NCBI RefSeq assembly: GCF_010686655.1
Contig: NZ_JAAGVY010000048.1
Location: 1-32,099 of the forward strand
Source of the DNA: Cryomorpha ignava
Lineage (GTDB): Bacteria > Bacteroidota > Bacteroidia > Flavobacteriales_D > Cryomorphaceae
DNA length: 32,099 bases
Direction: 5' to 3'
Program-made: the position numbers and the translations under genes
Notes under the pieces: model-generated
Database searches by the model: none
What the model saw: only the letters and a program-made list of their open reading frames with translations
What the model was told of the DNA's origin: nothing
In this document: piece by piece, positions 1 through 16,260 of the stretch
Layout: the number at the start of each line of letters is the position of its first letter
Position numbering within the stretch: the stretch's first letter is position 1

Positions 1-48
1 CAAAAATGATGACAACACCAACCCCGTTAAATAGAATGGCGCGTGTAA

Positions 49-68
49 AGGCGCGATGCTTCGCGCCT
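49..68 (+). repeat. R2 hairpin, copy 1
   Basis: Perfect inverted repeat: arms AGGCGCGA and TCGCGCCT, loop TGCT. Flanking ATGGCGCGT and ACGCCCAT can extend the stem imperfectly. Six copies occur in the window, all in the same orientation. No T-run follows, so it is not an ordinary intrinsic terminator. Confidence 0.9.
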
Positions 69-379
69 CTAATACGCCCATTCATTGTTCAACATCAAAA
101 TGAAAACCGTCAGCATTCAAAACGTAATTTACCTTAGAATGTAAACATGTTCTTACCGGGATTCAAAAATGATGACAACAAAACGTTCTCTTTAACACCG
201 TTGAAAAAAAAACACATGTGAAAAACACCAACGACGTTGCATCATTAATGTCGCAATCAACAAATCGTATCCAGACCGCCGGGGTATAAATTTCAAAATA
301 TAAACCAATCACATTCACCGGTCGAAACCGCAGGTTGCAGATCCCGCCTTAGCGGGGCGGATGAACGTGATTGATATTT

Positions 380-470
380 AACCCCGGATTAAAATCCGGG
401 GCTACAATAACGATCGTGCCTACAGCACTGCTACGTTAAATATTGAATCTACCTTGGAGAGGTCCAATAT
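380..470 (+). repeat. CCCCGGATT hairpin module, copy 1
   Basis: Perfect 9-bp hairpin with arms CCCCGGATT (382-390) and AATCCGGGG (393-401) and a 2-base AA spacer. It is followed by a conserved tail beginning GCTACAATAAC and containing GCCTACAGCACTGCTACG. The same hairpin and tail recur at 6554-6640, so this is a dispersed repeat and not a gene-specific terminator. Confidence 0.8.
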
Positions 471-510
471 CTGTCGAAAAAGATACCCGAATGTTAATCG
501 CCGACGCTGT

Positions 511-668
511 CCATTTACCTTACATGCGTACTCCCAAAAGGTCGTCGGTGAGATCGCTTCGCTAAGTGCGAGTACCTCAACTTAGCGCAGCGCTTTCACG
601 TGGTCATTGAGCGCAGTCGAAATGCAGCGAAGCAAGTAATGCGGCGCATACGGCCTCTCGTTGGTCGT
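511..668 (+). repeat. I element, copy 1, carrying a nested N element
   Basis: Begins CCATTTACC and ends GTTGGTCGT, the same ends as the copies at 7609-7695 and (inverted) 3408-3505. It lies directly after the R3 hairpin 5' arm plus loop bases GT (502-510) and before AGGC, the same insertion point as in the other copies. The R3 3' arm is degraded here. A 59-bp N element sits inside at 582-640. Confidence 0.75.
582..640 (+). repeat. N element, copy 1 (59 bp), nested in the I element
   Basis: Interrupts the I-element string CTCAAC/GCGGCGCAT, which is contiguous at 7609-7695 and 9752-9798. It starts TTAG, contains GTGGTCATTGAGCGCAGTCG and ends GCAAGTAAT. A 59-bp copy with the same ends lies at 16021-16079. 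Its core resembles a sequence (GGTCA-TGAGC-GTCGAA type) that I recall as widely dispersed in Bacteroidota genomes. Confidence 0.75.
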
Positions 669-749
669 AGGCTTAAATCAAGTTGAACCTTGTTGGTTTT
701 TTTTGAAAACGCTTGTCAAAGAAACATATGTTTTGTAATTTCAGGCTCA

Positions 750-1766
750 ATGGATTTGAAATCAAAATTGAGAGTTGAGGGTTCGAAAAATTGCTCTGGA
801 GACATTATTGGTCTAAATAAGATTAGACAACTTAAGGAGTCAAATTACTATGTCATCCCTCAAACCCTTGATGGGGATGCGCCTAAAGAGTTTGTAAGTG
901 CTTATTTTTATTCTAAATCAAATAAATTTCACAAAAAGAACAGTAGTTCATGGTACAAGTATATCGCGAAAACGGCTGAAAAGTGGTATCCCATCGAGTC
1001 TATTACTGAGTTTACAATAAACAAATTAGGAGAGACGCTGGGTCTCAAAATGAATGAATCTGAATTGGTTTATTGTAATGGTCAGATTCGTTTTTTCAGC
1101 AAATATTTCCTCAAAAAGGATGAGATTCTACTTCATGGAGCAGAAATTTGCGGTGATTACTTAAATGATCGCGTTTTCGCAAACGAAATTGCAGGTGATA
1201 AAAATACGGCTCGGGAATTTTTCACCTTTGAATTTATTTGTGAAGCCTTAGATAAGATATTCAAAAGTCATTCGTTTAAATTAAAACTTGAATTTGTAAG
1301 AATGCTGGTTTTCGATTGTCTCATAGGAAATAATGATAGACATTTTTATAATTGGGGTGTTATCGCAAATACACGTCGTAGTGTGAAAATGCCTATCTTT
1401 GCTCCCGTTTATGATTCGGCTAGAGGGTTGTTTTGGAATCAAAGTGATGAAAAAATTAGACACTTTCATTCCCTATTAAGCAATCCCAATAGCAGAAAAA
1501 TAGAGAAATATTCGAAAGTATCACAGCCTAGAGTTAGTATAGAAAGTAATAAGAATGCTAACCATTTTGAGCTAATAGAGTATATTATAGCTACTGATGC
1601 TAGGTATAAGGCTGTGGTCATCGATTTGTGTTCAGAATCTAATGAGAGGGAAGTTCTGGAGAGATTCAGGAATGATTGTTGTTGCTTTATGATTAGAGAG
1701 CGGCAAGATTTAATTGAACAGTTACTTAAACGGAGATTTAAAACGACGCGAGAATTAATATCATGA
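750..1766 (+). CDS. HipA-like serine/threonine kinase (toxin-like, HipT/HipA C-terminal domain)
   Basis: Protein of 338 residues resembling the kinase core of HipA toxins. Visible motifs are a candidate ATP-binding lysine in YIAKT (K74), the catalytic loop LIGNNDRHFYNWG with D196 and N201, and the metal-binding segment APVYDSARGL with D222. It lacks the N-terminal HipA subdomain; a separate protein resembling that subdomain is encoded next, overlapping by 4 bases (ATGA). HipA-family kinases phosphorylate aminoacyl-tRNA synthetases (GltX for HipA, TrpS for HipT) and stop translation; the substrate here is unknown. I chose the ATG at 750; the frame opens upstream with a TTG at 690, but that stretch is next to repeat sequence. 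No HipB-like DNA-binding gene lies upstream. Base composition is more AT-rich than the flanking repeats. It could also be a non-toxic HipA-like kinase. Confidence 0.8.
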   Translation: MDLKSKLRVEGSKNCSGDIIGLNKIRQLKESNYYVIPQTLDGDAPKEFVSAYFYSKSNKFHKKNSSSWYKYIAKTAEKWYPIESITEFTINKLGETLGLKMNESELVYCNGQIRFFSKYFLKKDEILLHGAEICGDYLNDRVFANEIAGDKNTAREFFTFEFICEALDKIFKSHSFKLKLEFVRMLVFDCLIGNNDRHFYNWGVIANTRRSVKMPIFAPVYDSARGLFWNQSDEKIRHFHSLLSNPNSRKIEKYSKVSQPRVSIESNKNANHFELIEYIIATDARYKAVVIDLCSESNEREVLERFRNDCCCFMIRERQDLIEQLLKRRFKTTRELIS

Positions 1767-2146
1767 TACAAGGAATATTTAACAAGTTATTTTCTAAAGG
1801 TGATGCCCCTCATGACTTTGCGCCAATGGAGCAGGTTGGGCAAATGACACTTAAATTAAATGATTTAGTTATTGGTTTTTTGACTTGTACAAATGGTGAA
1901 TGGACATTCAAATATTCCGATGAATTTCAGAATCAGAATGAATTCCACTCTATTGTTGGCTTTCCAAAATTAGATAAAGAGTATAAATCTAATGAGTTAT
2001 GGCCTTTTTTTCAAATCCGAATTCCCGGATTAAAACAGCCAGCCATCATAGAAACGATCAAAAAAGAACATATCAAGAATAATGAGTTTGACCTACTAAA
2101 ACGATTTGGACGAAAATCAGTCTCAAATCCTTACGAATTAGTATAA
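1763..2146 (+). CDS. Stand-alone HipA N-terminal-domain protein (HipS-like candidate antitoxin)
   Basis: Protein of 127 residues. Residues 28-90 fit the HipA N-terminal subdomain: a strand with 'LNDLVIGFL', then 'GEWTFKYSDEF', a serine-bearing 'HSIVGFP', and 'ELWPFFQIRIPG', matching the usual LFPFF-LLPEG end of that domain. In HipBST systems this subdomain is a separate protein, HipS, that neutralises the kinase HipT. Here the start codon overlaps the kinase stop codon (ATGA), suggesting coupled translation, and the order is kinase first, the reverse of classical hipB-hipS-hipT. The assignment rests on motif resemblance only; the first 25 and last 35 residues are not recognised. Confidence 0.6.
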   Translation: MIQGIFNKLFSKGDAPHDFAPMEQVGQMTLKLNDLVIGFLTCTNGEWTFKYSDEFQNQNEFHSIVGFPKLDKEYKSNELWPFFQIRIPGLKQPAIIETIKKEHIKNNEFDLLKRFGRKSVSNPYELV

Positions 2147-2661
2147 TGAATTTCCCACCGGCAGAAGAACGTTGAGTTTTTTTAGCTTTTAGCTGTTGGC
2201 CTTTAGCTGTTGGCTTTTGCGTTCGTCCTTATAGAAACCGTTTTTTCCTTAGACCGCCCCCCGCCCCGCTCCGTTGGGCATCCGCCCTGCGGCAAACAAA
2301 GACTCATCTCTGCCGTCCTTCGAGAAGTCGAATATGTATACAACTACGAATCAGATGATATGTCGCGTCGCTCCGCTGGGCATCTGCCCTGCGGCAAACA
2401 AAGTTTCATATCTGCCGCCCTTGGAAAGATCGAATATTTATCGAAAAAGATGTTGGCATGTTAACCACCGACCCTGTAAGGGTCGCATGTTTGTAGAATA
2501 ACGATTGGTAGATTAACAAGGTGTTGGCGGCATTTTTGACGATTCATTAACCACCAAAAACAGCACAGAAAACGTAATTTACCTTGGAATGAAAACATGT
2601 TCTTACCGGGATTCAAAAATGATGACAACACCAACCCCGTTAAATAGAATGGCGCGTGTAA

Positions 2662-2681
2662 AGGCGCGATGCTTCGCGCCT
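2662..2681 (+). repeat. R2 hairpin, copy 2
   Basis: Identical arms and loop to the copy at 49-68. It is followed directly by an R1 module instead of the ATTCATTGTTC tail seen in most copies, marking a module junction. Confidence 0.9.
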
Positions 2682-3087
2682 CTAATACGCCCCGCTCCGC
2701 TGGGCATCCGCCCTGCGGCAAACAAAGACTCATCTCTGCCGTCCTTCGAGAAGTCGAATATGTATACAACTACGAATCAGATGATATGTCGCCCCGCTCC
2801 GCTGGGCATCCGCCCTGCGGCAAACGAAGTTTCATTTCATTCCACCCTTGGAAAGATCGAATATTTATCGAAAAAGATGTTAGCATGTTAACCACCGACG
2901 CTGTAGGTGTCCCATGTTTGTAGAATAACGATTGGTAGATTAACAAGGTGTTGGCGGCATTTTTGACGATTCATTAACCACCAAAATAGCATTCAAAACG
3001 TAATTTACCTTGGAATGAAAACATGTTATTTCCGGGATTCAAAAATGATGACAACACCAACCCCGTTAAATAGAATGGCGCGTGTAA

Positions 3088-3107
3088 AGGCGCGATGCTT
3101 CGCGCCT
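3088..3107 (+). repeat. R2 hairpin, copy 3
   Basis: Identical arms and loop to the copy at 49-68, at the end of the second 427-bp unit. Confidence 0.9.
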
Positions 3108-3407
3108 CTAATACGCCCATTCATTGTTCAACATCAAAATGAAAACCGTCAGCATTCAAAACGTAACCTACGTTGGAATGAAAATATGTCCTTACCGGGA
3201 TTCAAAAATGGTGACAACTAAGAAGCGATCTCTTGAACACCATTAAAAAATAAACACGTGTGAAAAACACCAACGACGTTGCATCATTAATGTCGCAACC
3301 AACAAACCATATTCACCCCGCCGGATTAAAAATTTAAATATAAACTCAAATCATTCACCGGCGGACGGACGTCAAGAAACGTACGATACTACACATATTG
3401 CACCCCT

Positions 3408-3505
3408 ACGACCAACGGGAGTGCGTATGTACGACCATTTGGGAGTCCGTACGCGCCGCGTTGAGGTACTCGCACTTACGAAGCGATCTCACCGAAGGTA
3501 AATGG
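3408..3505 (-). repeat. I element, copy 2, inverted
   Basis: Read on the minus strand it starts CCATTTACCTTCGGTGAGAT and ends CCCGTTGGTCGT, like the copy at 7609-7695. Its minus-strand flanks are CCTGT before and AGGGG after, matching the R3 loop insertion context (CTGT | AGG) of the plus-strand copies. The surrounding hairpin arms have diverged (GCATCCT against AGGGGTGC). It has no nested N element. Confidence 0.75.
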
Positions 3506-3581
3506 ACAGGATGCTCCCTCCGTGCATATTTGAAACATTGTGCACCAAAACTCTTCTCCATCTTAGTGCACTATTCTAACT

Positions 3582-3604
3582 AAAAAGCGATTGATGAAAC
3601 GCTT
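3582..3604 (-). terminator. Weak intrinsic terminator candidate after the SGNH gene
   Basis: On the minus strand, AAGCG and CGCTT can pair over a 10-base loop and are followed by a short T-run. It lies about 60 bases past the stop codon of the SGNH-like gene. The 5-bp stem is short, so this is tentative. Confidence 0.35.
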
Positions 3605-3661
3605 CATTTATTTCTTTACTCCTTATTAATCAATAGGCAAAGGTGTGATACACAATTTCAA

Positions 3662-4570
3662 CTATTGATGAGCTGTTTTCGTCAACTCAAATATATCCTC
3701 ACTAAGTATCTCTGAAAATCGGTTTGCGGCAGCTTCATTAAAATGAGTAATATCTGTAAAGTCAGTCATTTTAAAATCATGATTTTTGCTGTAATTAAAG
3801 TAAAACACTTGCTTATTATCCACAAAATCATTGATGAACGAATTAAACAACTCTCGTTCGGCGGGCGTATGTGCCTTTAGTTCATTTTCCCGCAAAGGAG
3901 GCATTACCATAAACACGGTAATACCATTTGCCCTGCACAAATCAATGATCTTTTTAAAATAGTTTACTTGAAAATCAAGCCGGGTTAGATCTCTTTCTAC
4001 TGTGTTTGTTTCTTTTGCTTTTCCGGGTTTTATAAACTGTCCGTTTTCACGCTGAAACGGCTTGTCTTCTACTCGCTTTAGTCCACGCAGCTTCATTGGA
4101 TTTACATTGCCTAAATAATAATCTATTTTTTGGAGCAGCAAATTACCTTCGGGATAATCATTCATATAATCGGCACCTAATAAATCGCCGTAAACATAAT
4201 TTCTTGTGTCAGATTTAAAACTAAATTGATGATAGTCAACACCAAGAATTACTTTATTGAAAACCTTACCGTTATCAAGTACATATTTCAGTTTGAAGTA
4301 AAGCTGGTTATAGGTATCGTTATCATGAGAGAAGTTGAAAGTCTGGCAATAGAATCTATCCGGATTAAGACCTCTATAAAGTCGGCTATTTCCCAAAATC
4401 AATAACTCGTAGTCTCTACTTAGTGAATTCTTAAACGACTGATGAATTTCCTGTTTGGTAGTTGGCCCATATTGAATGGACAATACATCAGGCATAAAAA
4501 TCATTGCTGCGATACAATAAATCAGAATTGGAATAATGAACAGCGCTAGTTTCCGGAACATTTTTCTCAT
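3662..4570 (-). CDS. SGNH-fold hydrolase-like protein, partner of the MBOAT acyltransferase
   Basis: Protein of 302 residues with one N-terminal membrane anchor (about 8-27), so the rest is probably periplasmic. Residues 56-70, 'LLILGNSRLYRGLNPD', fit SGNH block I with S62 as candidate nucleophile. Near the C-terminus, DITH (D273, H276) fits the Asp-x-x-His of block V. Homologous partners of AlgI-type MBOAT proteins (AlgJ/AlgX, DltD, PatB) complete acyl transfer to a surface polymer. The gene starts 3 bases after the MBOAT stop codon on the same strand, so co-transcription is very likely. No polymer biosynthesis genes are in the window, so the acceptor is unknown. It could instead be a DUF1574-like protein of the same fold. 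Confidence 0.75.
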   Translation of the reverse strand: MRKMFRKLALFIIPILIYCIAAMIFMPDVLSIQYGPTTKQEIHQSFKNSLSRDYELLILGNSRLYRGLNPDRFYCQTFNFSHDNDTYNQLYFKLKYVLDNGKVFNKVILGVDYHQFSFKSDTRNYVYGDLLGADYMNDYPEGNLLLQKIDYYLGNVNPMKLRGLKRVEDKPFQRENGQFIKPGKAKETNTVERDLTRLDFQVNYFKKIIDLCRANGITVFMVMPPLRENELKAHTPAERELFNSFINDFVDNKQVFYFNYSKNHDFKMTDFTDITHFNEAAANRFSEILSEDIFELTKTAHQ

Positions 4571-4573
4571 AGC

Positions 4574-6025
4574 CTAAAACTGAAAATAGATGAATTCCTG
4601 CTTCTGACCGCCAAAGAAGAATATTGCGAAAATAATTACATAATACAGTGCATATCTGTACACTCGCTTCCATGAATGGCCCATTTTTTCAAGAGTATAT
4701 GCATTTTCTCTGCCCAGCCATTCCATAACAATGAAGATTACAACCAACAGTATTTCAGTTTTTGGAAAGATAGTATAGGTACTCATTTGTATAGAAGGAA
4801 GTACAAAGAATTCCTTTGTAAAAATCCCGGCAATATACCCGAACGCATGACCAACACTATCTGCCCTAAAAAATATCCACGCAATGACCGTAAGTCCAAA
4901 CGTTCCAACCATTCCGGCAATTTCGCGAAAGCTTGGAAAACCATGTTGGCCAATGACATCCAGATTTCTGCGGTTCTTGCCAAATAATAAAAGTGGCAAA
5001 AAGTAAATGGCATTCAGACCTCCCCAAATCACAAAAGTCCAATTGGCACCGTGCCAGAACCCGCTTACCAGAAATATGATAAACACATTGCGCACCACTT
5101 TGGCCATAGAGCCACGACTACCGCCTAAGGGGATATACAGGTAATCGCGAAACCAGGTGCTAAGCGAAATGTGCCACCGCCGCCAGAATTCTGCAATATC
5201 GCGCGAGAAATACGGAAAAGCGAAATTTTGCATCAACCTGAAACCAAATAGACGCCCGGTACCAATAGCAATATCGGAGTATCCCGAGAAATCGCCGTAA
5301 ATCTGAAAAGCAAAGAATACACCGCCCAAGACTAGTGTTAAGCCGCTGTACTGATCCGAATTATTGAAAATAATATCGGCGTAGGCTCCGCAGTTATCGG
5401 CTATGACCACCTTCTTAAAAAGTCCCCAGAGAATTTGCCGCATCCCATCAACCGCTTCGGGGTAGCTAAACTTCTTTTTGGTAAAAAACTGGGGGAGCAG
5501 GTGTGTGGCGCGCTCGATGGGGCCGGCCACCAGCTGCGGGAAAAAGCTAACGAAAGCCGTAAAGGCCATAAAATCGCGCGTGGGCTCCAGCTGCCTTCTA
5601 TACACATCAATGGTATAGCTAAGGGTTTGAAAAGTATAAAAGCTAATCCCCACCGGCAGAATAACGTTCAGCGTGCCCGCCTGAAAATCGTGCCCAAAGA
5701 ATGAAAAAGCGGTAATGAAATTATCGACAAAGAAGTTGTAGTACTTAAAAAACCCCAGCAGCCCCAGGTTTACCAGCAGACTCGTCCACAGCAGCACCTT
5801 CCTTTTACTCACCCTTTCGGTCTTGCCCATTTGGAGTCCGATGGTGTAATCTACTAAGGTGCTAAACAGAATAAGCGATAGAAACCGCCAGTCCCACCAG
5901 CCATAAAACACATAACTCGCCAGTACGATAAGGCCATTCTGCTGCTTTCGGGTTTTAGTTACGAACCAGAATAGCAGAAAGACTATCGGTAGGAAGATTG
6001 CGAAATCTAAGGAGTTGAAGAGCAT
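4574..6025 (-). CDS. MBOAT family membrane-bound O-acyltransferase (AlgI-like)
   Basis: Protein of 483 residues, the usual AlgI length, with about ten or more hydrophobic segments. Diagnostic motifs are 'FFPQLVAGPIERATHLLPQF' (161-180), 'QIYGDFSGYSDIAIG' (241-255), 'FWRRWHISLSTWFRDYLYIP' (280-299) with conserved H285, and 'SGFWHGANWTFVIWGG' (321-336) with the catalytic histidine H325. Family members move an acyl group, commonly acetyl, across the inner membrane for O-acetylation of alginate or other surface polysaccharides. The start ATG is the first in frame, and the N-terminus 'MLFNSLDFAIFLPIVF' is typical. It forms a tight pair with the downstream SGNH-like gene. No acceptor pathway is visible, so naming it algI would overstate the evidence. 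Confidence 0.95.
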   Translation of the reverse strand: MLFNSLDFAIFLPIVFLLFWFVTKTRKQQNGLIVLASYVFYGWWDWRFLSLILFSTLVDYTIGLQMGKTERVSKRKVLLWTSLLVNLGLLGFFKYYNFFVDNFITAFSFFGHDFQAGTLNVILPVGISFYTFQTLSYTIDVYRRQLEPTRDFMAFTAFVSFFPQLVAGPIERATHLLPQFFTKKKFSYPEAVDGMRQILWGLFKKVVIADNCGAYADIIFNNSDQYSGLTLVLGGVFFAFQIYGDFSGYSDIAIGTGRLFGFRLMQNFAFPYFSRDIAEFWRRWHISLSTWFRDYLYIPLGGSRGSMAKVVRNVFIIFLVSGFWHGANWTFVIWGGLNAIYFLPLLLFGKNRRNLDVIGQHGFPSFREIAGMVGTFGLTVIAWIFFRADSVGHAFGYIAGIFTKEFFVLPSIQMSTYTIFPKTEILLVVIFIVMEWLGRENAYTLEKMGHSWKRVYRYALYYVIIFAIFFFGGQKQEFIYFQF

Positions 6026-6551
6026 TGCCTATGGCCTTGTTGTTTTTAGTTTTTGGTTTTTGGTTTTTAGACGCGCGAACCTACGAACTTAAACTGTGTT
6101 TTAAAACACCGTTGTTTGTTTTTTGCCACCAAGTCTGCTCCGCTGGGCATGCGCCCTGCGGCAGTCGGAGTCTCATCCCAACCGCCCACAGCTTTCAATA
6201 AGCAACCCCCCTCTACCTCTGGGAGAGGGATGGGGTGAGGGATCTGGCCTATTCCAAGATCTTAGCAAATGACCCTCTCCACCAACTTCCCCGCTCCGCG
6301 GCATTTATTCCCTACGGTCATGAGATCGTTGCACTAAGTTGCAATGCTGCGGAATCCAACTTCTCGCTCCGCAGCATCTGTGCTGCTGCGGAATCCAGCT
6401 TTGATCTCCGCTGCGCTGGGTATCAACCCCCGCAAAGCGGGATCTAAAGACCTGCGCCGTTTCGTAAACAGACACGACATTAAAAAAGGCAATTATCATA
6501 AGGTAAAAACTGTCGTACTTACAGCACTACCCGACTCTATTTACCAACTTG

Positions 6552-6640
6552 TACCCCGGATTAAAATCCGGGGCTACAATAACTATCGTGCCTACAGCAC
6601 TGCTACGTTAAATATTGGATCTACATTGACGAGGTAGAAT
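6552..6640 (+). repeat. CCCCGGATT hairpin module, copy 2
   Basis: Arms CCCCGGATT (6554-6562) and AATCCGGGG (6565-6573) with the same AA spacer and the same GCTACAATAAC tail as the copy at 382-470, nearly identical over about 80 bases. Confidence 0.8.
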
Positions 6641-7608
6641 ATTTATAAAGCAACCTGTAGGAAGGCTAATCGCTAATACGGTGCTACCCCGCTCCGCAGC
6701 ATCTGTGCTGCTGCGGAATCCAGCTTTGATCTCAGATACGCTGGGCATGCGCCTGCGGCAAACGAAGTTTCATTTCATTCCACCCTTGGAAGGATCGAAT
6801 ATTTATCGAAAAAGATGTTAGCATGTTAACTACCGATGCTGTAGGTGTCGCATGTTTGTAGAATAACGATTGGTAGATTAACAAGGTGTTGGCGGCATTT
6901 TTGACGATTCATTAACCACCGGAAACAGCATTCAAAACGTAATTTACCCCGCTCCGCTGGGCATCCGCCCTGCGGCAAACAAAGACTCATGTCTGCCGTC
7001 CTTCGAGAAGTCGAATATGTATACAATTACGAATCAGATGATATGTCGCGTCGCTCCGTTGGGCATCCGCCCTGCGGCAAACAAAGTTTCATGTCAGCCG
7101 CCCTTGGAAAGATCGAATATTTATCGAAAAAGATGTTAGCATGTTAACCACCGACGCTGTAGGTGTCGCATGTTTGTAGAATAACGATTGGTAGATTAAC
7201 ATGGTGTTGGCGGCATTTTTGACGATTCATTAACCACCAAAAACAGCATTCAAAACGTAATTTACCTTGGAACCCGCTCCGCTGGGCATCCGCCCTGCGG
7301 CAAACAAAGTTTCATATCTGCCGCCCTTGGAAAGATCGAATATTTATCGAAAAAGATGTTAGCATGTTAACCACCGACGCTGTAGGTGTCGCATGTTTGT
7401 AGAATAACGATTGGTAGATTAACAAGGTGTTGGCGGCATTTTTGACGATTCATTAACCACCAAAATAGCATTCAAAACGTAATTTACCTTGGAATGAAAA
7501 CATGTTCTTACCGGGATTCAAAAATGATGACCACACCATTTAAAAAAAAACGTCGCATAACGCGTGACGTCTCAAAAGCTTCGCGTCGATGTTGACCACC
7601 GACGCTGT

Positions 7609-7695
7609 CCATTTACCTTCGGTGAGATCGCTTCGTACCTCAACGCGGCGCATACGGACTCCCTCCGGTCGTACATACTCACTCCCGTTGGTCGT
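7609..7695 (+). repeat. I element, copy 3 (87 bp), inserted in an R3 hairpin loop
   Basis: The flanking hairpin is intact: 5' arm CGACGCT (7600-7606), loop bases GT, the insert, loop base A, 3' arm GGCGTCG (7697-7703). The uninterrupted hairpin at 7375-7391 has only GTA in the same place. The insert starts CCATTTACCTTCGG and ends CCCGTTGGTCGT. Confidence 0.85.
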
Positions 7696-7762
7696 AGGCG
7701 TCGAATGTTTGTAGATATAAAGGTTCGTAGTCTGCCAAAAGTTAATACCACAGGTTTATAAA

Positions 7763-7805
7763 TTCACTTATTTAGTGAACTATTTTGCGTTTATTTGTAT
7801 CTTCG
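7763..7805 (+). promoter_or_regulatory. Candidate promoter and operator of the higBA operon
   Basis: A -7 box TATCTTCG (7798-7805), followed by CAC, resembles the Bacteroidota TAnnTTTG consensus. Upstream, TTCACT (7763-7768) and AGTGAA (7774-7779) form a perfect inverted repeat with a 5-base spacer over the expected -33 region, a plausible HigA operator. No clear -33 TTG is visible, which fits a repressible or weak promoter. An AAAGGA (7815-7820) sits 5 bases before the higB start. Confidence 0.55.
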
Positions 7806-7825
7806 CACTGTGACAAAGGAAAACT

Positions 7826-8146
7826 ATGGAAATAAATTTCGAGAAAGACTACCTGAAAGAACTGTATGAAGACGGCAGGGCTCGAAGCAAAAAACATAGG
7901 TTTCAACCAAAACTTATCAAGAAATATATACAAACGATAGATAAATTAAGAGTCGCAAAAAATACAGAAGAGTTATATCCTATTAAAAGCCTGAATTATG
8001 AAAGGCTGATCGGAGATAAAAAAGGATTAGAATCTGTAAGAGTAGATGGCAAATATCGAATAGAATTTATCACTACTGAGGAAGGCGAAGAACGGAACAC
8101 CATTACAATATGCTCAATTATTGAATTGAGTAATCACTACAAGTAA
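7826..8146 (+). CDS. higB: HigB-like toxin, RelE/ParE superfamily
   Basis: Protein of 106 residues with the HigB plasmid-killer pattern: 'FEKDYLKELYEDGRARSKKHRFQPKLIKKYIQTIDKL' at the N-terminus, a central 'YPIKSLNYERLIGDKKGLESVRVDGKYRIEF', and a C-terminal 'ITICSIIELSNHYK'. HigB toxins are ribosome-dependent mRNA endonucleases. The order toxin first, then a larger HTH antitoxin 12 bases later, is typical of higBA and opposite to most other type II modules. It was identified by fold-level motif resemblance; catalytic residues vary in this family and were not assigned. Confidence 0.88.
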   Translation: MEINFEKDYLKELYEDGRARSKKHRFQPKLIKKYIQTIDKLRVAKNTEELYPIKSLNYERLIGDKKGLESVRVDGKYRIEFITTEEGEERNTITICSIIELSNHYK

Positions 8147-8158
8147 ATACGCGCAAAG

Positions 8159-9253
8159 ATGGAAACAAACAAAATTTTAATACCAGCACAAGCAACACAT
8201 CCTGGAGTGCTAATTAAAGATGAATTAGACGCGACACCTCAACTAACCCAAAAAATATTGGCTATGGAATTAGGGGTGCAACCATCATTCTTAAATGAAA
8301 TAATCAAAGGAAAAAGACCGGTAACCGCCGATATCGCAATTTTATTAGAAAAGATACTCGGTATTTCAGCAGACTATTGGATGAAATTTCAGTCTCAATA
8401 CGAGATTGATAAAGCAAGAGTTAAACAAAAAAACCTCAAAAAAGTAAAGAATATTGAACAATGGAGCATTATAAAAGAATATGTTCCGGTCCGGTATTTA
8501 AAAAAACACAATTACCTAAATGATGACATTGAAAGTGACATTAAAACAATAAAGAATATTTATGATGTAGAAACTATTGATGGGCTGGTAACCTCTTTTT
8601 CTGAAGATAAATTTGCCTATTATCGCAAGTCAGAAAAATTAAAAATAGATGACAAAAACATGTTCGCCTGGAGTGCTTTAGCTCAATATGAAGCTAAAAA
8701 TCAGAAAGCGAATACTTTTAAATTTGACAACCTAAATCAACTCTGTTTAAATCTGAATAACATATTCTACGAAAACTCCGGTACACCAGAAAGAGTTAAA
8801 GCTGCTCTGAATCAATTCGGAGTTAAAATGTTGCTAATTAACAAACTAGAAAAAGCACCTATTGACGGATTTTCATTTTGGTCAGAGAGAAATCCGGTAA
8901 TTGCCTTGACTTTGAGATATAATCGGATTGACAATTTTGCATTTACAATTATGCACGAAATTGGACATATTGATTTGCATTTGAGAAATGATAAGGACAG
9001 AAAATTTATGGACTTAACTAGAAAGCAGAATTTGGACAAATGCGAGAACGAGGCCGATACTTACGCTCAAGAAAAATTGATTCCCAAACACATCTGGCAA
9101 GATATATCAGAAAATCATCTCCCACTCAACGACGAAAAAATTATAGCTCTGGGAGATGAACATAGAATTAATCCCGCCATCTTGTTAGGCCGGGTTTGCT
9201 ACGAAATGGATTACTACGCGATGAAAACTTCGATAGATAAGAAAATGAAATAA
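8159..9253 (+). CDS. higA: HigA-like antitoxin fused to an ImmA/IrrE-type zinc metallopeptidase domain
   Basis: Protein of 364 residues. Residues 10-90 are the HigA-type HTH, with the hallmark 'HPGVLIKDEL', 'LGVQPSFLNEIIKGKRPVT' and 'ADYWMKFQSQYEIDKA'. After a linker, residues 225-310 hold a Gly-zincin-like site: HEIGH (H266, E267, H270) and a downstream 'CENEADTYAQE' with E298 as probable third ligand. Plain HigA antitoxins are about 100 residues, so this is the long fused form. In phage and ICE systems, ImmA-like peptidases cleave the cognate repressor. A fused peptidase could cleave its own or a partner's repressor under stress; that is inference. It lies 12 bases after the toxin gene, so a bicistronic operon is likely, and it is flanked by repeat islands on both sides. 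Confidence 0.92.
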   Translation: METNKILIPAQATHPGVLIKDELDATPQLTQKILAMELGVQPSFLNEIIKGKRPVTADIAILLEKILGISADYWMKFQSQYEIDKARVKQKNLKKVKNIEQWSIIKEYVPVRYLKKHNYLNDDIESDIKTIKNIYDVETIDGLVTSFSEDKFAYYRKSEKLKIDDKNMFAWSALAQYEAKNQKANTFKFDNLNQLCLNLNNIFYENSGTPERVKAALNQFGVKMLLINKLEKAPIDGFSFWSERNPVIALTLRYNRIDNFAFTIMHEIGHIDLHLRNDKDRKFMDLTRKQNLDKCENEADTYAQEKLIPKHIWQDISENHLPLNDEKIIALGDEHRINPAILLGRVCYEMDYYAMKTSIDKKMK

Positions 9254-9751
9254 CGGTCCCCGCTACGCTGGGCAAGCGCCCCCGCAAAGCGAAACCCGCT
9301 CCGCAGCATCATGCCTTCGGCTTGATCCAAGATCTGCGCTGCGGCGGCAGAACGAAGTTCCATTGCAGCCCACCCTTTAAAAGATCGAATATTTATCGAA
9401 AAAGATATTGGATTGTTGACCACCGACGCTGTAAGGGTCGCATGTTTGTAGCAGCAAAGGTTCGTTGTCTGCCATGGTGTTGGCGGCATTTTTGATGATT
9501 CATTACCCACCGGAAACAGCATTCAATACGTAATTTACCCCGCTCCGCTGGGCATCCGCCCTGCGGCAAACAAAGTTTCATATCTGCCGTCCCTGGAGGA
9601 GTCGAATATGTATACAACTACGAAGCAGATGATATGTCGCGTCGCTCCGCTGGGCATCCGCCCTGCGGCAAACAAAGTTTCATATCTGCCGTCCCTGGAA
9701 AGATCGAATATTTATCGAAAAAGATATCCGAATGTTCACCACCGACCCTGT

Positions 9752-9798
9752 CCATTTCGAGTACCTCAACGCGGCGCATACGGACTCCCTCTGGTCGT
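9752..9798 (+). repeat. I element, copy 4, internally deleted (47 bp), in an R3 hairpin loop
   Basis: Same insertion point: 5' arm CGACCCT (9743-9749), loop GT, insert, loop base A (9799), 3' arm AGGGTCG (9800-9806). The insert keeps the CCATTT start and GGTCGT end but lacks the middle and the second half of the longer copies. Confidence 0.8.
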
Positions 9799-9983
9799 AA
9801 GGGTCGCATGTTTGTAGCAGTAAAGGTTCGTAGTCTGCCATGGTGTTGGCGGCATTTTTGATGATTCATTACCCACCGGAAACAGCATTCAAAACGTAAC
9901 CTACGTTGGAATGAAAACATGTTATTTCCGGGATTCAAAAATGATGACAACACCAACCCCGTTAAATAGAATGGCGCGTGTAA

Positions 9984-10003
9984 AGGCGCGATGCTTCGCG
10001 CCT
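9984..10003 (+). repeat. R2 hairpin, copy 4
   Basis: Arms AGGCGCGA and TCGCGCCT, loop TGCT, identical to the other copies; first unit of the 484-bp array. Confidence 0.9.
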
Positions 10004-10463
10004 CTAATACGCCCATTCATTGTTCAACATCAAAATGAAAACCGTCAGCATTCAAAACGTAACCTACGTTGGAATGAAAATATGTCCTTACCGGGATTCA
10101 AAAATGATGACAACAAAACGTTCTCTTTAACACCTTTAAAAAATAAACCCATGTGAAAAACACCACCAACGTTCCTCATCATTTTCGAAATCAACAAACC
10201 ATATAAAGTTTCATGTCAGCCGCCCTTGGAAAGATCGAATATTTATCGAAAAAGATGTTAGCATGTTAACCACCGACCCTGTAAGGGTCGCATGTTTGTA
10301 GCAGTAAAGGTTCGTAGTCTGCCATGGTGTTGGCGGCATTTTTGATGATTCATTACCCACCGGAAACAGCATTCAAAACGTAACCTACGTTGGAAAACAT
10401 GTTATTTCCGGGATTCAAAAATGATGACAACACCAACCCCGTTAAATAGAATGGCGCGTGTAA

Positions 10464-10483
10464 AGGCGCGATGCTTCGCGCCT
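10464..10483 (+). repeat. R2 hairpin, copy 5
   Basis: Identical to the other R2 copies; second unit of the 484-bp array. Confidence 0.9.
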
Positions 10484-10941
10484 CTAATACGCCCATTCAT
10501 TGTTCAACATCAAAATGAAAACCGTCAGCATTCAAAACGTAACCTACGTTGGAATGAAAATACGTCCTTACCGGGATTCAAAAATGGTGACAACTAAGAA
10601 GCGATCTCTTGAACACCATTAAAAAATAAACACGTGTGAAAAACAACACCTACGTTCCCTCATCATTTTCGAAATCAACAAACCATATAAAGTTTCATGT
10701 CAGCCGCCCTTGGAAAGATCGAATATTTATCGAAAAAGATGTTAGCATGTTAACCACCGACCCTGTAAGGGTCGCATGTTTGTAGCAGTAAAGGTTCGTA
10801 GTCTGCCATGGTGTTGGCGGCATTTTTGATGATTCATTACCCACCGGAAACAGCATTCAAAACGTAATTTACCTTGGAATGAAAACATGTTCTTACCGGG
10901 ATTCAAAAATGATGACAACACCAACCCCGTTAAATAGAATG

Positions 10942-10961
10942 GCGCGTGTAAAGGCGCGATG
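10942..10961 (+). repeat. R2 hairpin, copy 6
   Basis: Identical to the other R2 copies; truncated third unit, about 140 bases upstream of the Xre-like gene. Confidence 0.9.
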
Positions 10962-11064
10962 CTTCGCGCCTCTAATACGCTCATTCATTTTTCAACATCA
11001 AAAAGAAAAACGGTACAAATCCACAAATCAGCACATATAAATATTCCCCTATTAAATCATATTG

Positions 11065-11100
11065 TTGTATATTTACGTACGTCAAATTGTAAAAATACAA
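11065..11100 (+). promoter_or_regulatory. Operator-like inverted repeat of the xre-res operon, with -7 box
   Basis: Arms TTGTATATTTAC (11065-11076) and GTAAAAATACAA (11089-11100) are inverted repeats with one mismatch in 12 and a 12-base spacer; ACGTACGT lies across the left arm and spacer. The left arm contains TATATTTA (11068-11075), a fair -7 box. The repeat ends 2 bases before the antitoxin ATG, where autorepression by the Xre protein would be expected. Confidence 0.65.
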
Positions 11101-11102
11101 TC

Positions 11103-11600
11103 ATGAGCACAAAGCCAACATCAAAACGATTGTCTAAAAGTACACGGGCAACTACGGTTGCAGCTTCTATAAACACCCCCACTCGTTCAACCAAATTTTC
11201 ACCCACATGGGTTGTTGGTAACGCCAAATATTCTCCTGATTTTAAACTTGAGATCATTAAACGCATTCGGATTGGTGTAAAGAAAACGGATTGGAAAGCC
11301 TTGATTCGTAATATTGGAGCAACCGAAAAGGAATTTGAAAACATCTTACCGACATCAATAAGTAGTATGCAACAGAAAACGGTGTATGGCAAGGAAACTT
11401 CAGAGCGAATCTACGAATTGGCAAGATTGTTTGGCTTGGGATATGATGTATTTGATACCAAGGATGATTTTAAGAATTGGTTAATGACCCCGTCAAGATC
11501 TCTTGGCAATAAAAAGCCATTTGATTTATTGGATAGTAGTCTTGGATTTGAAATGGTAGAAAGCGAGATCGTTAGGATCCGGTATAATGTCTATAGCTAA
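11103..11600 (+). CDS. Xre/MbcA/ParS-like antitoxin of a RES toxin (DUF2384-type C-terminus)
   Basis: Protein of 165 residues. The C-terminal part, 'IYELARLFGLGYDVFDTKDD' onward to 'RIRYNVYS', matches the toxin-binding Xre-MbcA-ParS domain, with the 'FKNWLMTPSRSLGNKKPFDLL' signature (123-143). The central region 'DWKALIRNIGATEKEFENIL' fits the Xre HTH-like domain of this family. The first 40 residues are a basic, Ser/Thr-rich tail that looks disordered. The ATG at 11103 is preferred over an in-frame start at 10959 because the latter lies in dispersed repeat DNA and would skip the operator. Its last codon overlaps the toxin start (TAATG). It probably represses its own operon. Confidence 0.88.
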   Translation: MSTKPTSKRLSKSTRATTVAASINTPTRSTKFSPTWVVGNAKYSPDFKLEIIKRIRIGVKKTDWKALIRNIGATEKEFENILPTSISSMQQKTVYGKETSERIYELARLFGLGYDVFDTKDDFKNWLMTPSRSLGNKKPFDLLDSSLGFEMVESEIVRIRYNVYS

Positions 11601-12070
11601 TGATCGTTTATAGAATTGCTAACGCCAGGTATAAGGACAAGACTCTTTCGGGAATTGGTGCTGAAAAAGTTGGTGGACGTTGGAATGAAGTTGGCACAAG
11701 AGCAGTATATTGCTCCGAGAATATCTCTTTGGCACTACTCGAATATTACGTGCATTCCGGCAACATTGCTTATTTACCCAAAGAAATTTTAGTTGCCAAA
11801 ATTGAATTTCCTGATCAATTTTTAATTTCCGATTTGAATAATCTTCCCGATAAATGGAATCACTACCCTTACTCTTCCACAACAACTTCAATCTTCACCA
11901 ACTTAGCCAAAGATAGAAATCTATTTGCGCTGCGCGTTCCTTCGACAATTGTAAATTTGGAATCGAATATCATTCTGAATCCCTTATACAAAGATTTTGG
12001 AAAAGTTGAAATCGTTGAGTTTATTCAACTAGCTATTAATGAAAGATTAAAAAAGAATAAACGCGGTTAA
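11600..12070 (+). CDS. RES-domain toxin (NAD+-depleting family)
   Basis: Protein of 156 residues spanning a complete RES domain. Visible family features: 'YRIA' with R5, 'GGRWNEVGTRAVYCSE' (25-40) with R27 and Y37, 'LALLEYY' with E48, and 'RVPSTIVNLESNIILNP' (112-128) with S115 and the conserved N127-P128. RES toxins, such as MbcT and Res, degrade NAD+ and are neutralised by an Xre/MbcA antitoxin, here encoded just upstream with a 1-base overlap. No residue loss is evident, so it is probably intact. Confidence 0.9.
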   Translation: MIVYRIANARYKDKTLSGIGAEKVGGRWNEVGTRAVYCSENISLALLEYYVHSGNIAYLPKEILVAKIEFPDQFLISDLNNLPDKWNHYPYSSTTTSIFTNLAKDRNLFALRVPSTIVNLESNIILNPLYKDFGKVEIVEFIQLAINERLKKNKRG

Positions 12071-12142
12071 ATTTCCACCATACTCTTCAATCTGAATGAA
12101 ATCTCGTAAGCCAGCGTCAAGATCGAAATTCCTAATTAAAAG

Positions 12143-12367
12143 TTCACAATTCGTAATTAATCCTTCGTAATTCACAATTCACAATTCAAAATTCAAAATT
12201 CAAAATTCAAAATTCAAAATTCAAAGCCACCCCTCGTAATTCAAAATTCACAATTCAAAATTCAAAATTCAAAGCCACCCCTCGCAATTCAAAATTCACA
12301 ATTCACAATTCAAAATTCAAAGCCACCCCTCGTAATTCAAAATTCAAAATTCAAAATTCAAAATTCA
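12143..12367. repeat. Heptanucleotide tandem repeats (AATTCAA-type) with a spaced 20-bp motif
   Basis: Gap between the RES gene and the convergent S74-protein gene. It is made almost wholly of AATTCAA and ACAATTC 7-mers, broken at intervals by AAAGCCACCCCTCG, which occurs three times. There is no coding frame and no clear terminator. Such AT-rich heptad tracts are common in Bacteroidota intergenic DNA in my recollection. The rest of the 309-base gap (12071-12142) shows nothing. Confidence 0.8.
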
Positions 12368-12379
12368 CCCCCCCCAACC

Positions 12380-15016
12380 CTACTCTTCCAGTTTCTCAAC
12401 CCGCTCTCCAATTTTAAAAATCAACTCCTTCAGCGCTTCAATTTCCACAGCTTGATTTTCAATAATCACCTGCTGCTCCTGAATAGCCTTGATTGCCACT
12501 GCACTCATGCCTGCATAATTTACGGTGTAAAACATTTCCCGCTCACTATCTGGCTCAGGAGCTGTTACAAACTCCGGAAATTGTTTTTCCAGTTCCTGGG
12601 CTATATAACCGATCTGAGGCGCTTTTGCCGGGTCTCGTTTAAAATCATAATTTACAATTTGAACCTCTTTCACCTTATTGAGCAAGTTGCCAACGGGTTG
12701 AATATTTTCCTTTAGGCTTCTATCTGAAGTAGCCGAATAAGCGCCTGTTGCCGAGTTGAAATTACCGATCAGCGAGCCATTGTAATATAGTCTCAACTGG
12801 GTATCTGTAGCCCAATAACTGTAACGATTCGTACCTGTAGCCATCAAAGTTAGATTATCTGATGCCCCGGGTCCATCCACAATTAATCCTCCATAACTCA
12901 CACCGCTACCAACCGAAGGATCGAAATTAATTCCCACCTTACCATGACCCGCCACCTGTAGAATATTGGTAGCCACGAAATCCGTTGAGCCGTAAGCGAT
13001 ATTAAAAAGCGAGCTCTGTGCCGTCGTATTAGATCCACCTGCAATGATCCATTGACCCGCATTGGCATTTTTAAAGCTGATTCGGCTAAGACCACTGCTA
13101 TAATCTCTTAAAGTAAGTTGAGGAAACCATACACCACTATTTTTCTTAATCTCTAATCCACCCTCAAAGTAACCGTTACCCTTAACATGAAGTCTTTCCG
13201 ATGGTGCTGAGGTACCAATGCCTACATTTGTTGGTGACAATGAATCACCTCCTACACTTCCAAGAATCAAAGAATTGCTTTGAGACACAACAGCAAATGC
13301 TCCAATAGCAGTAGCATTCATTAAACTTCCTGAGGTCACCGTGGCACCGTAACCCACCGCTGTATTATTACTACCTGTAGTAAGTCCTGTCAATGCGCTG
13401 CTTCCAATAGCCACATTCTTGGTTCCGGATGTAACTTGACCCATTGATCCTTTTCCAAATGCCGTATTATCCAATTTTATAAACCCCACATCCTGATTAT
13501 TCTGCTTAAAGCGCAACGACTGATTATTAGTGGTGCCAATAAAATTGCTGCTGCTTACTGAATTGCCTGACAAACCCCAACCGCTGGTCGAGGTGATGGT
13601 TGTTGGCGCCCAACTTGACCCATTAAAATATAAATACTGACCTTGAGTAGCTCCCATATTATTGAGCTTGGCTGCCGTAACAGCACCGTTCACAATTTTA
13701 GCTGAGGTAACTTTGTTGTTGCCAATTGTGGGATTGGGATAAGTTCCCGTAAGATCGCCACCGGCCGAAACCCCATTGATAGTTCCGGCAGGCCCTACCG
13801 GACCTGTAGCACCGGTAGCACCCTGCGGCCCTACGGCACCGGTCGAACCTGTATTCCCCTGAGGCCCCATTGGTCCGGTAGCACCTTGCGGACCGGCAGG
13901 ACCCGTTGCGCCCGTTGCACCTTGCGGACCCGTAGCAGCGGCAGTAGGCGCCCAACTTGACCCATTATAGGATAATACCTGACCTTGTGTAGCACCCATT
14001 GAACTAATTTTGGTTCCCGTTACTGCTCCATTCAAAATTTTAGTAGTCGTAACTTTATTGCTTCCAATTGTGGGATTGGGATAAGTTCCCGAAAGATCGC
14101 CACCTGCCGAACCTGTCGCACCTGTCGCAGCAGAAGTAGGCGCCCAAGTCGATCCATTATAGGATAATACCTGACCTTGTGTAGCACCCATTGAACTAAT
14201 TTTGGTTCCCGTTACTGCTCCATTCAAAATTTTAGTAGTCGTAACTTTATTGCTTCCAATGCTGGGATTGGGATAGGTGCCCGAAAGATCGCCACCTGCC
14301 GAAACCCCATTTATAGTTCCGGCAGGCCCTACCGGACCTGTTGCTCCTGTAGCACCTGTAGCACCCTGAGGACCCATTGCACCGGTAGCTCCCTGCGGCC
14401 CCGTATTTCCCTGCGGCCCAATAGCACCCGTGGCACCCGTAGCTCCCTGCGGACCAGCCGGGCCCATAGCGCCTGTAGCACCTTGAGAACCTGTAGCACC
14501 CTGCGGACCCGTATTTCCCTGCGGCCCAATAGCACCCGTCGAACCTGTCGCACCCTGAGGACCCGTCGCTCCCTGCGAACCGGGCGGGCCGGGCGGGCCT
14601 TGAGGACCTGCCACCCCTGTAGCGCTTTCCACTGCATACAAGGCATAAGGCACACTTAGTAGCTCTGTTGTACCCAAATCGCTGTAATTGCTCCCACCAT
14701 CCGGGTCAATCTCTACTTTTATAGATTTGTTTCCAGCACTCCAGGTCACATCACTCATGCTCCCTTCTACCGGCGTTCCGCCACCAATGGCAAGCGTGTA
14801 TAGACCAAACGAATTGGTGGTAATAGTATGTGTTTCAATATATTCAGCGTTGTCGCCGTCAAGAATACTTATCTGCAACCCCAACTGCTCATTTGCCAAT
14901 GGGGCACCTGCACTATTACGGGCTACACCCTGATAGTTAAATTTCTCCGGAGCCTGACCGCTTAGGTTTAATGCCAGCAAAATACTGGTGAGTACAAGAA
15001 TGATTTGGATTTTCAT
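12380..15016 (-). CDS. Secreted collagen-like, tail-fibre-type protein with S74 intramolecular chaperone
   Basis: Protein of 878 residues. Signal peptide at 1-20; residues 25-128 ('[20 protein letters not shown]') form the N-terminal domain common in Bacteroidota tail-fibre-like proteins. Two Gly-X-Y blocks rich in [10 protein letters not shown] (137-233, 363-411) alternate with three '[11 protein letters not shown]' units (241-294, 305-358, 419-471). A trimeric adhesin-like head follows ('[11 protein letters not shown]', 'NNTAVGYGA'). From S764-D765 the sequence 'SDRSLKENI' begins a Peptidase_S74 chaperone, which in endosialidases trims itself between such a Ser and Asp after trimerisation. 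The tail (840-878) is a predicted coiled coil. No T9SS sorting domain is present. It lies 93 bases downstream of a small T9SS protein on the same strand, so a two-gene operon is likely. A trimeric surface fibre is the best reading. Confidence 0.9.
13784..14608 (-). repeat. Coding repeats: collagen-like blocks and LSGTYPNP units
   Basis: Span of the two Gly-X-Y blocks in the S74-protein gene (14318-14608 and 13784-13930), separated by two near-identical units of 64 residues carrying '[11 protein letters not shown]' and '[14 protein letters not shown]'. DNA identity between the two units is very high, so unit number may vary between strains. Confidence 0.8.
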
Positions 15017-16189: not shown

Positions 16190-16197
16190 TAATTTTG
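16190..16197 (+). promoter_or_regulatory. Candidate -7 box of the giant gene
   Basis: TAATTTTG, a full match to the Bacteroidota TAnnTTTG -7 consensus, 63 bases before the chosen ATG. No TTG is present at the expected -33 distance, so confidence is moderate. Confidence 0.5.
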
Positions 16198-16260
16198 CCC
16201 ATTGAATATTATTTCTTGAAAATAATTATATACTTTTACTTTAACCAATCTATCCTACCA

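Follow-up and report, generated by a model that had tools for sequence, protein, structure and literature searches.

The small dispersed repeats (SDRs) that Elhai et al. reportedly described in 2008 from Nostoc and its relatives are said to be non-coding, dispersed sequences of only a few dozen bases (21-27 nt). They are also said to occur nested in their own copies and in heptamer arrays and to form a small secondary structure with compensatory changes. To our knowledge, how sequences too small for terminal repeats are moved has been an open question ever since SDRs were described. One of them, SDR5, inserts precisely in HIP1 according to the part of PMC4390886 dealing with it, and SDRs of cyanobacteria are also treated in sections of PMC3116915 and PMC2884548. 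Insertions into palindromic repeats have been reported as well: the relevant part of Di Nocera et al. 2013 (PMC3733652) concerns REPs inserted within palindromes in T. roseum, H. neapolitanus and A. variabilis, and IS1397, ISPsy8, ISPpu9/10 and ISRm22 insert in REPs at a fixed point of the palindrome, as given in the corresponding section of PMC1525189.

The window analyzed here is the complete 32,099-nt contig NZ_JAAGVY010000048.1 (G000:C48) of Cryomorpha ignava, one of the 149 contigs of a 5.0-Mb genome, and it contains hairpins of a family named R3, the loops of which are in part filled with additional sequence. The initial annotation regarded this filling as one mobile "I element". In our analysis it proved to be composite, made up of two tiny units of 23 nt (type II) and of 34 nt (type I) together with later nested insertions, and we consider it probable that these units are SDR-like mobile repeats with R3 as one of several landing sites, the hairpin itself probably being moved by its own Y1 transposase. 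Compared by description, the closest known kind of these units are most likely the cyanobacterial SDRs. They share with them the fixed length of a few dozen nt (34 nt in 74 of 83 type I copies, 23 nt in 10 of 10 pattern fills), the dispersed and non-coding character, the precise insertion with unfilled counterparts, the nesting in themselves and in heptamer arrays, and compensatory changes. In contrast to SDRs, the units belong to another phylum, measure 23 and 34 nt, have TT as target, display a significant preference for hairpin loops and include tRNA and group II intron domain V among their hosts. In the insertions treated in the pertinent part of PMC3733652, palindromes have received a tagged REP or REP dimer, whereas in our case the loops of REPs, tRNAs and introns contain a 23- or 34-nt unit that is nested several deep. 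The elements dealt with in the REP-related part of PMC1525189 are full transposons with a gene, whereas our units are of insufficient length for coding, and no version with a gene was encountered.

The uninterrupted R3 hairpin has the form CGACCCT-GTA-AGGGTCG, and direct reading together with a script confirmed this structure, as well as its filled copies at the places given by the initial annotation, with 8 empty and 4 filled copies in the window. The pattern scan for empty copies, tolerating up to 2 mismatches, located them on the plus strand at 2469..2485, 2896..2912, 6834..6850 (1 mismatch), 7152..7168, 7375..7391, 9424..9440, 10274..10290 (DNA folding energy -6.4 kcal/mol) and 10758..10774. 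The exact pattern CGACCCTGT-(0..30)-AAGG-(0..1)-GTC occurs at 36 places in the 5.0-Mb genome compared to 0 in the reversed control, in agreement with the initial view that the arrangement exceeds chance. The genome-wide count of empty and filled loops, already proposed there, gave an insert of 0 nt in 26 of the 36 places and of exactly 23 nt in the other 10, no other length being found within 0-30 nt; the longer fills and variant arms of the window fall outside the exact pattern and are hence not among the 36. All 10 fills are CCATACGGATTCCCTCTGGTCTT or close variants of it. DNA searches gave lower bounds: one R3 unit matched at least 28 places, several of them beyond the window (best 40 of 47 candidates), and the best 40 of 78 candidates were scored in a second search of the own genome. 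On contig C9, empty and 23-nt-filled R3 hairpins alternate in an array around a Y1 transposase gene. Sequence reading did not find a GTAG/CGTC tag directly at the R3 foot; GTAG is situated 7 nt past the 3' foot (CATGTTT-GTAG). True R3 was found in 0 of 198 sampled genomes of relatives, among the matches listed. Pattern matches in 22 of the 198 were rejected, nearly all of those listed having an unrelated gap sequence. Among these genomes, a single bare GACCCTGTAAGGGTC is present in both G117 and G070, and G035 has one with an additional A; all three were taken as chance matches because none carries the R3 tail CATGTTTGTAG.

The two filled copies at 7600..7703 (arm and GT 7600-7608, 87-nt fill 7609-7695, arm 7696-7703) and 9743..9806 (arm and GT 9743-9751, 47-nt fill 9752-9798, arm 9799-9806), both on the plus strand, possess intact arms, and the plus-strand copy at 502..672 consists of the 5' arm with GT (502-510), a 158-nt fill (511-668) and a decayed 3' arm, all of which had been described correctly. 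The fourth copy, an R3-like hairpin on the minus strand at 3400..3514 (arm and GT 3506-3514, 98-nt fill 3408-3505, arm 3400-3407), lies inverted between CTGT and AGG as annotated; its arms further out, GCATCC and GGGTGC on the minus strand, were not lost and still pair with one G-T pair. In general, the arms of filled copies vary yet pair (CGACCCT/AGGGTCG, CGACGC/GCGTCG, GCATCC/GGGTGC), decay being restricted to the 3' arm at 502. All four fills start with CCATTT straight after CTGT and end with GGTCGT before A.

Comparison of these fills among themselves and to the 23-nt form revealed a nested series from 23 over 47 and 98/87 to 158 nt. In the 47-nt fill, the GTCC-ATAC-GGAC hairpin of the 23-nt unit carries 24 nt in its loop; the 98-nt fill extends this form by a type I-like stretch following CCATTT and by a 23-nt unit in tandem, and the 87-nt fill corresponds to the 98-nt form minus 10 nt. 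The 158-nt fill adds a 23-nt-type unit inside an ACCTT^CGGT mini-hairpin (type II-like, 522..545, plus strand, ends uncertain by +/-1 nt) and a further insertion of 59 nt (582..640, plus strand), which is missing from the other three window copies and part of which recurs genome-wide. The order of the nested steps was read by eye from the alignment of the copies. According to it, the 23-nt unit (CCATACGGAYTCCCTNNGGTCKT) would have entered the R3 loop, the 24-nt piece the loop of the hairpin in this unit, and a type I-like unit would then have been inserted after a TT, with further units nesting inside.

The opposite direction, a long ancestral form from which the short forms arose by precise deletions, is highly improbable. 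The TT on both sides of 61 of the 83 type I copies could represent a 2-nt deletion seam, and internal deletion does occur, because the copy at 7600 is without 10 nt that are present in the copy at 3408. However, empty R3 hairpins outnumber the filled ones 26 to 10 and flank a transposase, the fills are nested in a consistent order, identical units are found in unrelated hosts, and no direct repeat of more than 1 base spans the 23-nt R3 fill. Gain instead of loss is the probable direction.

The copies at 502 and 9743 have a left-flank variant in common, CCGAATGTT, which was found in none of the 8 empty window copies. Moreover, the 109 nt rightwards from 9797 in the copy at 9743 are identical to an empty copy, and the left 63 nt are 89% identical. 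The shared position in the R3 loop is largely due to inheritance, because the fills are nested, the left-flank variant is common to 502 and 9743, and the filled REPs are themselves dispersed. Hence, the four window copies look like descendants of a few filled R3 hairpins with later insertions. The initial proposal of a loop-targeting mobile element is therefore retained insofar as something small does enter hairpin loops for which unfilled counterparts exist, but its interpretation of the copies as four independent hits of one element is not.

Better evidence for loop targeting, although statistical and incomplete, comes from other hosts, because there identical units occupy the loops of unrelated hairpins. 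The type I unit has the consensus A-Y-TCCC-NNN-GGTC-R-TGAGATCG-Y-TNN-R-CTAAGTT; the pattern ACTCCC-(1 to 7)-GGTCGT gave 30 genome matches compared to 1 in the control, and a longer type I pattern gave 20 matches in the own genome compared to 0. In the window, a 34-nt type I unit (6307..6340, plus strand) resides in the loop of a RAYT-type REP hairpin named R1 (GGCATTT^GCAATGC). Empty counterparts of the R1 loop GCATTT^GCAATGC exist in the own genome, and as judged by eye the unit is found there in two orientations, on C49 versus the other places. A different REP on C11 (GGGCTT^TAGCCC, CCTTGGGCTAAAGCCCAAGG), which adjoins a Y1 gene and also has an empty counterpart in the genome, carries type I in the loop with a nested piece, and by eye a 23-nt-type unit is nested within that piece at C11:77717. 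Nesting of unit in unit was likewise seen at C9:11879 and, by eye, on C45. A 3' fragment of tRNA-Pro harbors type I in its T-loop (GGATT^CGAACC), the T-arm of the adjoining intact tRNA-Pro representing the unfilled form. Heptamer arrays, which do not form hairpins, also carry type I (L201, L209, L215). Collectively, what is directly observed comprises filled sites paired with empty ones at a precise junction, units of exact length, host hairpins of several unrelated kinds, nesting, and covariation of paired positions within the unit.

These hosts also speak against the view that no repeated targeting took place, according to which each REP family was filled once, anciently, and recombination and the transposase of the REP afterwards spread the filled copies. 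Near-identical fills are indeed found in several copies of both R3 and R1, the flank variant common to 502 and 9743 fits such a history, and among the matches listed for B. oceani many places are 92-98% identical to the filled REP of B. glaciale. Nevertheless, type I occupies at least 5 unrelated hairpins, has two orientations in R1 and is nested in itself, which makes a single filling a rather unlikely explanation, to which we still give some weight. The spread of filled REPs as units may well have followed insertion.

The distribution of type I was investigated in one genome per species from 84,980 species, which yielded 57 stretches (up to 8 kb each) with 63 copies. By title, the stretches represent 32 assemblies, 27 of which are Bacteroidota or a group within it, and there was no cyanobacterial title among the 57 stretches. 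The titles of L249, L257, L268 and L270 are not Bacteroidota; among these four, the Atribacteria MAG and the archaeal MAG may be misbinned. The stretch L239 from a Chloroflexi MAG, in which the match has a long gap, appears to be due to chance. A stricter type I pattern, found in 9 of the 20 own copies, was applied to 392 evenly drawn genomes of the phylum, the own one included, and matched that one alone; the unit is therefore rare and patchy. No match to the 36-nt unit consensus was found among phages and plasmids, Rfam contains no family for the units in window positions 1-12000 at E up to 1, and the sequence strings of the units were not found in the literature searched.

The Brumimicrobium REP GGACGATT...AATCGTCC has a loop of 4 nt at 7 places and of 38 nt at 10 places in 15 loci from three species, with no other loop length between 2 and 45 nt in these loci; in 5 of the 15 (L223, L230, L245, L264, L271) the units lie outside the arm pattern, and the ratio of filled to empty hairpins is meaningless because the loci were fetched for holding a unit. 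For the filled site of B. glaciale, one 3-kb query found no orthologue in two congeners among the best 40 of 158 and 40 of 108 candidates. Group II introns (RF00029) aligned in L255 (51.3 bits) and L233 (38.3 bits, just under the gathering score of 40), the terminal GAA loop of their domain V holding 35 nt. A second unit-like stretch is situated in the domain VI region of the former intron (L255:2824-2968). By eye, the unit splits T-loop-like sequence near intact tRNAs in L225, L234, L246 and L275. Tandem arrays with a period of 34 exist in L250 and L267. A search for split sites with 9-mers gave 735 rows, mostly chance matches or tandem arrays, and was replaced by 11-mers with 29 rows, some of which remain tandem artefacts in C9.

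The preference for loops was tested on 35 distinct hosts, obtained from the 63 foreign copies of which 60 had long enough flanks, after removal of the unit and up to two T; the own-genome set comprised 12 distinct hosts from 20 copies. In the 35 foreign hosts, the best stem enclosing the junction had a mean of 3.29 bp compared to 2.59 bp for permuted flanks (maximum of 2000 permutations 3.17), and stems of at least 6 bp occurred 3 times compared to 0.14 (maximum 2). A hairpin score allowing G-T pairs and bulges reached 10.97 compared to 9.04 (fraction 0.0003), with a score of at least 12 in 13 of the 35 hosts against 6.2 in permuted and 5.0 in same-host controls; the comparison with same-host controls gave a Wilcoxon p of 0.045. 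The host folding energy was also below that of permuted sequences (fraction 0.0044). No difference was found for junctions in a predicted hairpin loop in this set (20 versus 19.4), and among stable folds the numbers were not clearly different (13 versus 9.4, 0.089). In the 12 own-genome hosts, neither score comparison was significant (0.11 and 0.26) and the folding energy was no lower than permuted (0.71); the junction-in-loop count was 9 versus 5.4 (0.016). Hairpin loops are accordingly a preferred rather than a required landing site, because the host tests are significant in part and heptamer arrays are hit as well, about a third of the independent hosts being clear hairpins. The single-strand exposure of a loop may be the reason for this preference.

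The structure of the type I unit was analyzed in an alignment of 74 units (48 distinct), from which 9 of the 83 copies were left out because their match was not 30 letters long. Two mini-hairpins with 3-nt loops were evaluated, one in which columns 1-2 and 5-6 pair with columns 10-11 and 14-15, the other in which columns 22-23 pair with columns 27-28. In these, 96.2% of the cells were paired compared to 91.7% after shuffling, and 21 cells were changed on both sides compared to 8.4, values that none of 500 shuffles reached (0/500 each); sliding the pairing partner by 1-3 columns decreased pairing to 17-49%. Three of five structure measures exceeded all 500 shuffles, bearing in mind that related sequences can beat such shuffles without structure. 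The other two were the pairs with a double change (2 versus 1.6, a value that 311 of 500 shuffles attained) and the further pair types (4 versus 4.6), neither of which was above the shuffled value. In the foreign copies, the scan pattern had constrained column 23 to Y and columns 14 and 27 to R, which left only column 2 free in the 2-14 pair. Units had no stable fold by nearest-neighbour energies, and RNAalifold did not predict the mini-hairpins. Hence, the mini-hairpins show compensatory changes by three of five measures, and energy-based prediction does not support them.

The search for a transposase elsewhere in the genome, also suggested at the outset, yielded 11 matches to PF01797 (Y1), of which 10 are over the cut-off, 3 have internal stops and four are in RAYT-size frames. 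The gene on C9 (C9:10514-10981, minus strand, 155 aa) has empty R3 hairpins as nearest neighbors on both sides (10390, 11053). Its protein scores 71.1 bits with PF01797; NCBIfam did not classify it as RAYT, no REP_Tyr_transpos match being listed. R3, R1 and the C11 repeat resemble the REP/RAYT system in being hairpin families beside Y1 genes, and R3 is a REP-like family that most likely owes its mobility to the IS200/IS605-type Y1 transposase it flanks, neighborhood being the basis for this assignment. In contrast to REP/RAYT, this R3-flanked enzyme matches only IS200 (NF033573, 48.7 bits, cut-off 55), and the units are not paired terminal hairpins of any Y1 gene seen in the genome. The initial guess of an IS200/IS605-like enzyme encoded elsewhere thus applies to the host hairpin, because empty R3 hairpins flank the Y1 gene on C9, but no such enzyme was tied to the units. 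On C42 (L027, C42:2905-3400), R3 hairpins lie beside what appears by eye to be a short 3' remnant of a C9-type transposase gene.

It might be assumed that the units are inserted directly into single-stranded hairpin loops by a Y1 (HUH) enzyme, IS200/IS605-like or RAYT-like, that the own genome encodes. Hairpins and TT-adjacent insertion resemble the single-stranded DNA style of IS200/IS605. Such enzymes are present, two of four tested proteins exceeding the REP_Tyr_transpos cut-off of 80, the R1-flanked ones on C49 and C30 with 100.5 and 97.2, and filled hairpins are found near Y1 genes: of the two REPs bordering the RAYT on C80, one is empty and one filled, the RAYT on C49 is about 0.5 kb from a filled REP, and an R3-like hairpin that contains a type II-like fill (L085:848-881) is situated 186 nt from a broken Y1 frame with one internal stop on C14. 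However, such co-occurrence says little because Y1 genes are common. Furthermore, inspection of the 11 Y1 loci by eye revealed no gene bounded on both sides by units as matching hairpins, most loci having their own REP, and tblastn with 10 of the 11 Y1 sequences detected no relative in the 57 foreign stretches. Among the 11 Y1 loci and the 57 stretches there was also no tnpA between the units' own end hairpins and no derivative sharing those ends. We therefore regard direct insertion by such an enzyme as possible though unlikely.

A spread of the units via an RNA intermediate, with reverse transcription into RNA-like hairpins, would explain why a tRNA T-loop and the tetraloop of intron domain V (group II) serve as hosts, and an RNA intermediate had reportedly been proposed for cyanobacterial SDRs. 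However, REPs and heptamer arrays as hosts need no RNA, and this route appears improbable to us. Returning to the view of SDR-like units with several landing sites, the 34-nt type I unit would insert 3' of a TT, often in the loop of a hairpin such as a REP, a tRNA T-arm or an intron domain V. In a bolder and quite tentative extension, this non-coding unit of Bacteroidota may be the substrate of a structure-reading machinery that inserts it 3' of a loop TT in these hosts, whereby new loops could become the next targets and hairpin trees would grow by nesting.

As SDR-like repeats, the units would represent a second such set, from another phylum, characterized by a defined length, by a dinucleotide as target, by sites available both empty and filled and by a structural preference, and the idea of mobile DNA of only a few dozen bases would, if true, reach a new bacterial phylum. 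REP loops can evidently be landing sites for other repeats, which matters when variation in REP loops is read as function or slippage. In addition, the units offer traceable insertions in tRNA and ribozyme loops.

Some further observations were made beside these repeats. Around a Y1 gene on C11 (L080, C11:30038-33379), a tandem array of about 400 bp was seen by eye, the units of which carry a short copy of the 3' end of the gene. By eye, L086 (C80, from about 2247), L177 and L197 contain a gene resembling IS110-family transposases, and the sequence preceding this gene recurs at two places that immediately adjoin a type II unit, as though these elements target the repeats, too. In the window, 382-429 and 6554-6601 resemble the Rfam Acido-Lenti-1 RNA (32.8 and 35.2 bits, gathering score 37). 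Both have, by eye, the hairpin-plus-CTACAATAAC layout and palindromes as found around Y1 genes on C11 and C32; this "sRNA" family may thus be a REP, because its layout matches the surroundings of Y1 genes. The repeat-rich first 12 kb also contain a HipA-like protein, a HigB-like toxin with an HTH/IrrE-domain partner and a Xre/MbcA/ParS-type antitoxin (690-1766, 7826-9253, 10959-11600). An AT-rich minisatellite at about 12107-12367 adjoins the gene at 12380-15016 (minus strand) for a protein with collagen-like repeats and an endosialidase-chaperone (Peptidase_S74) end, and an open frame of 4699 aa with repeated blocks extends from 16195 to 30294.
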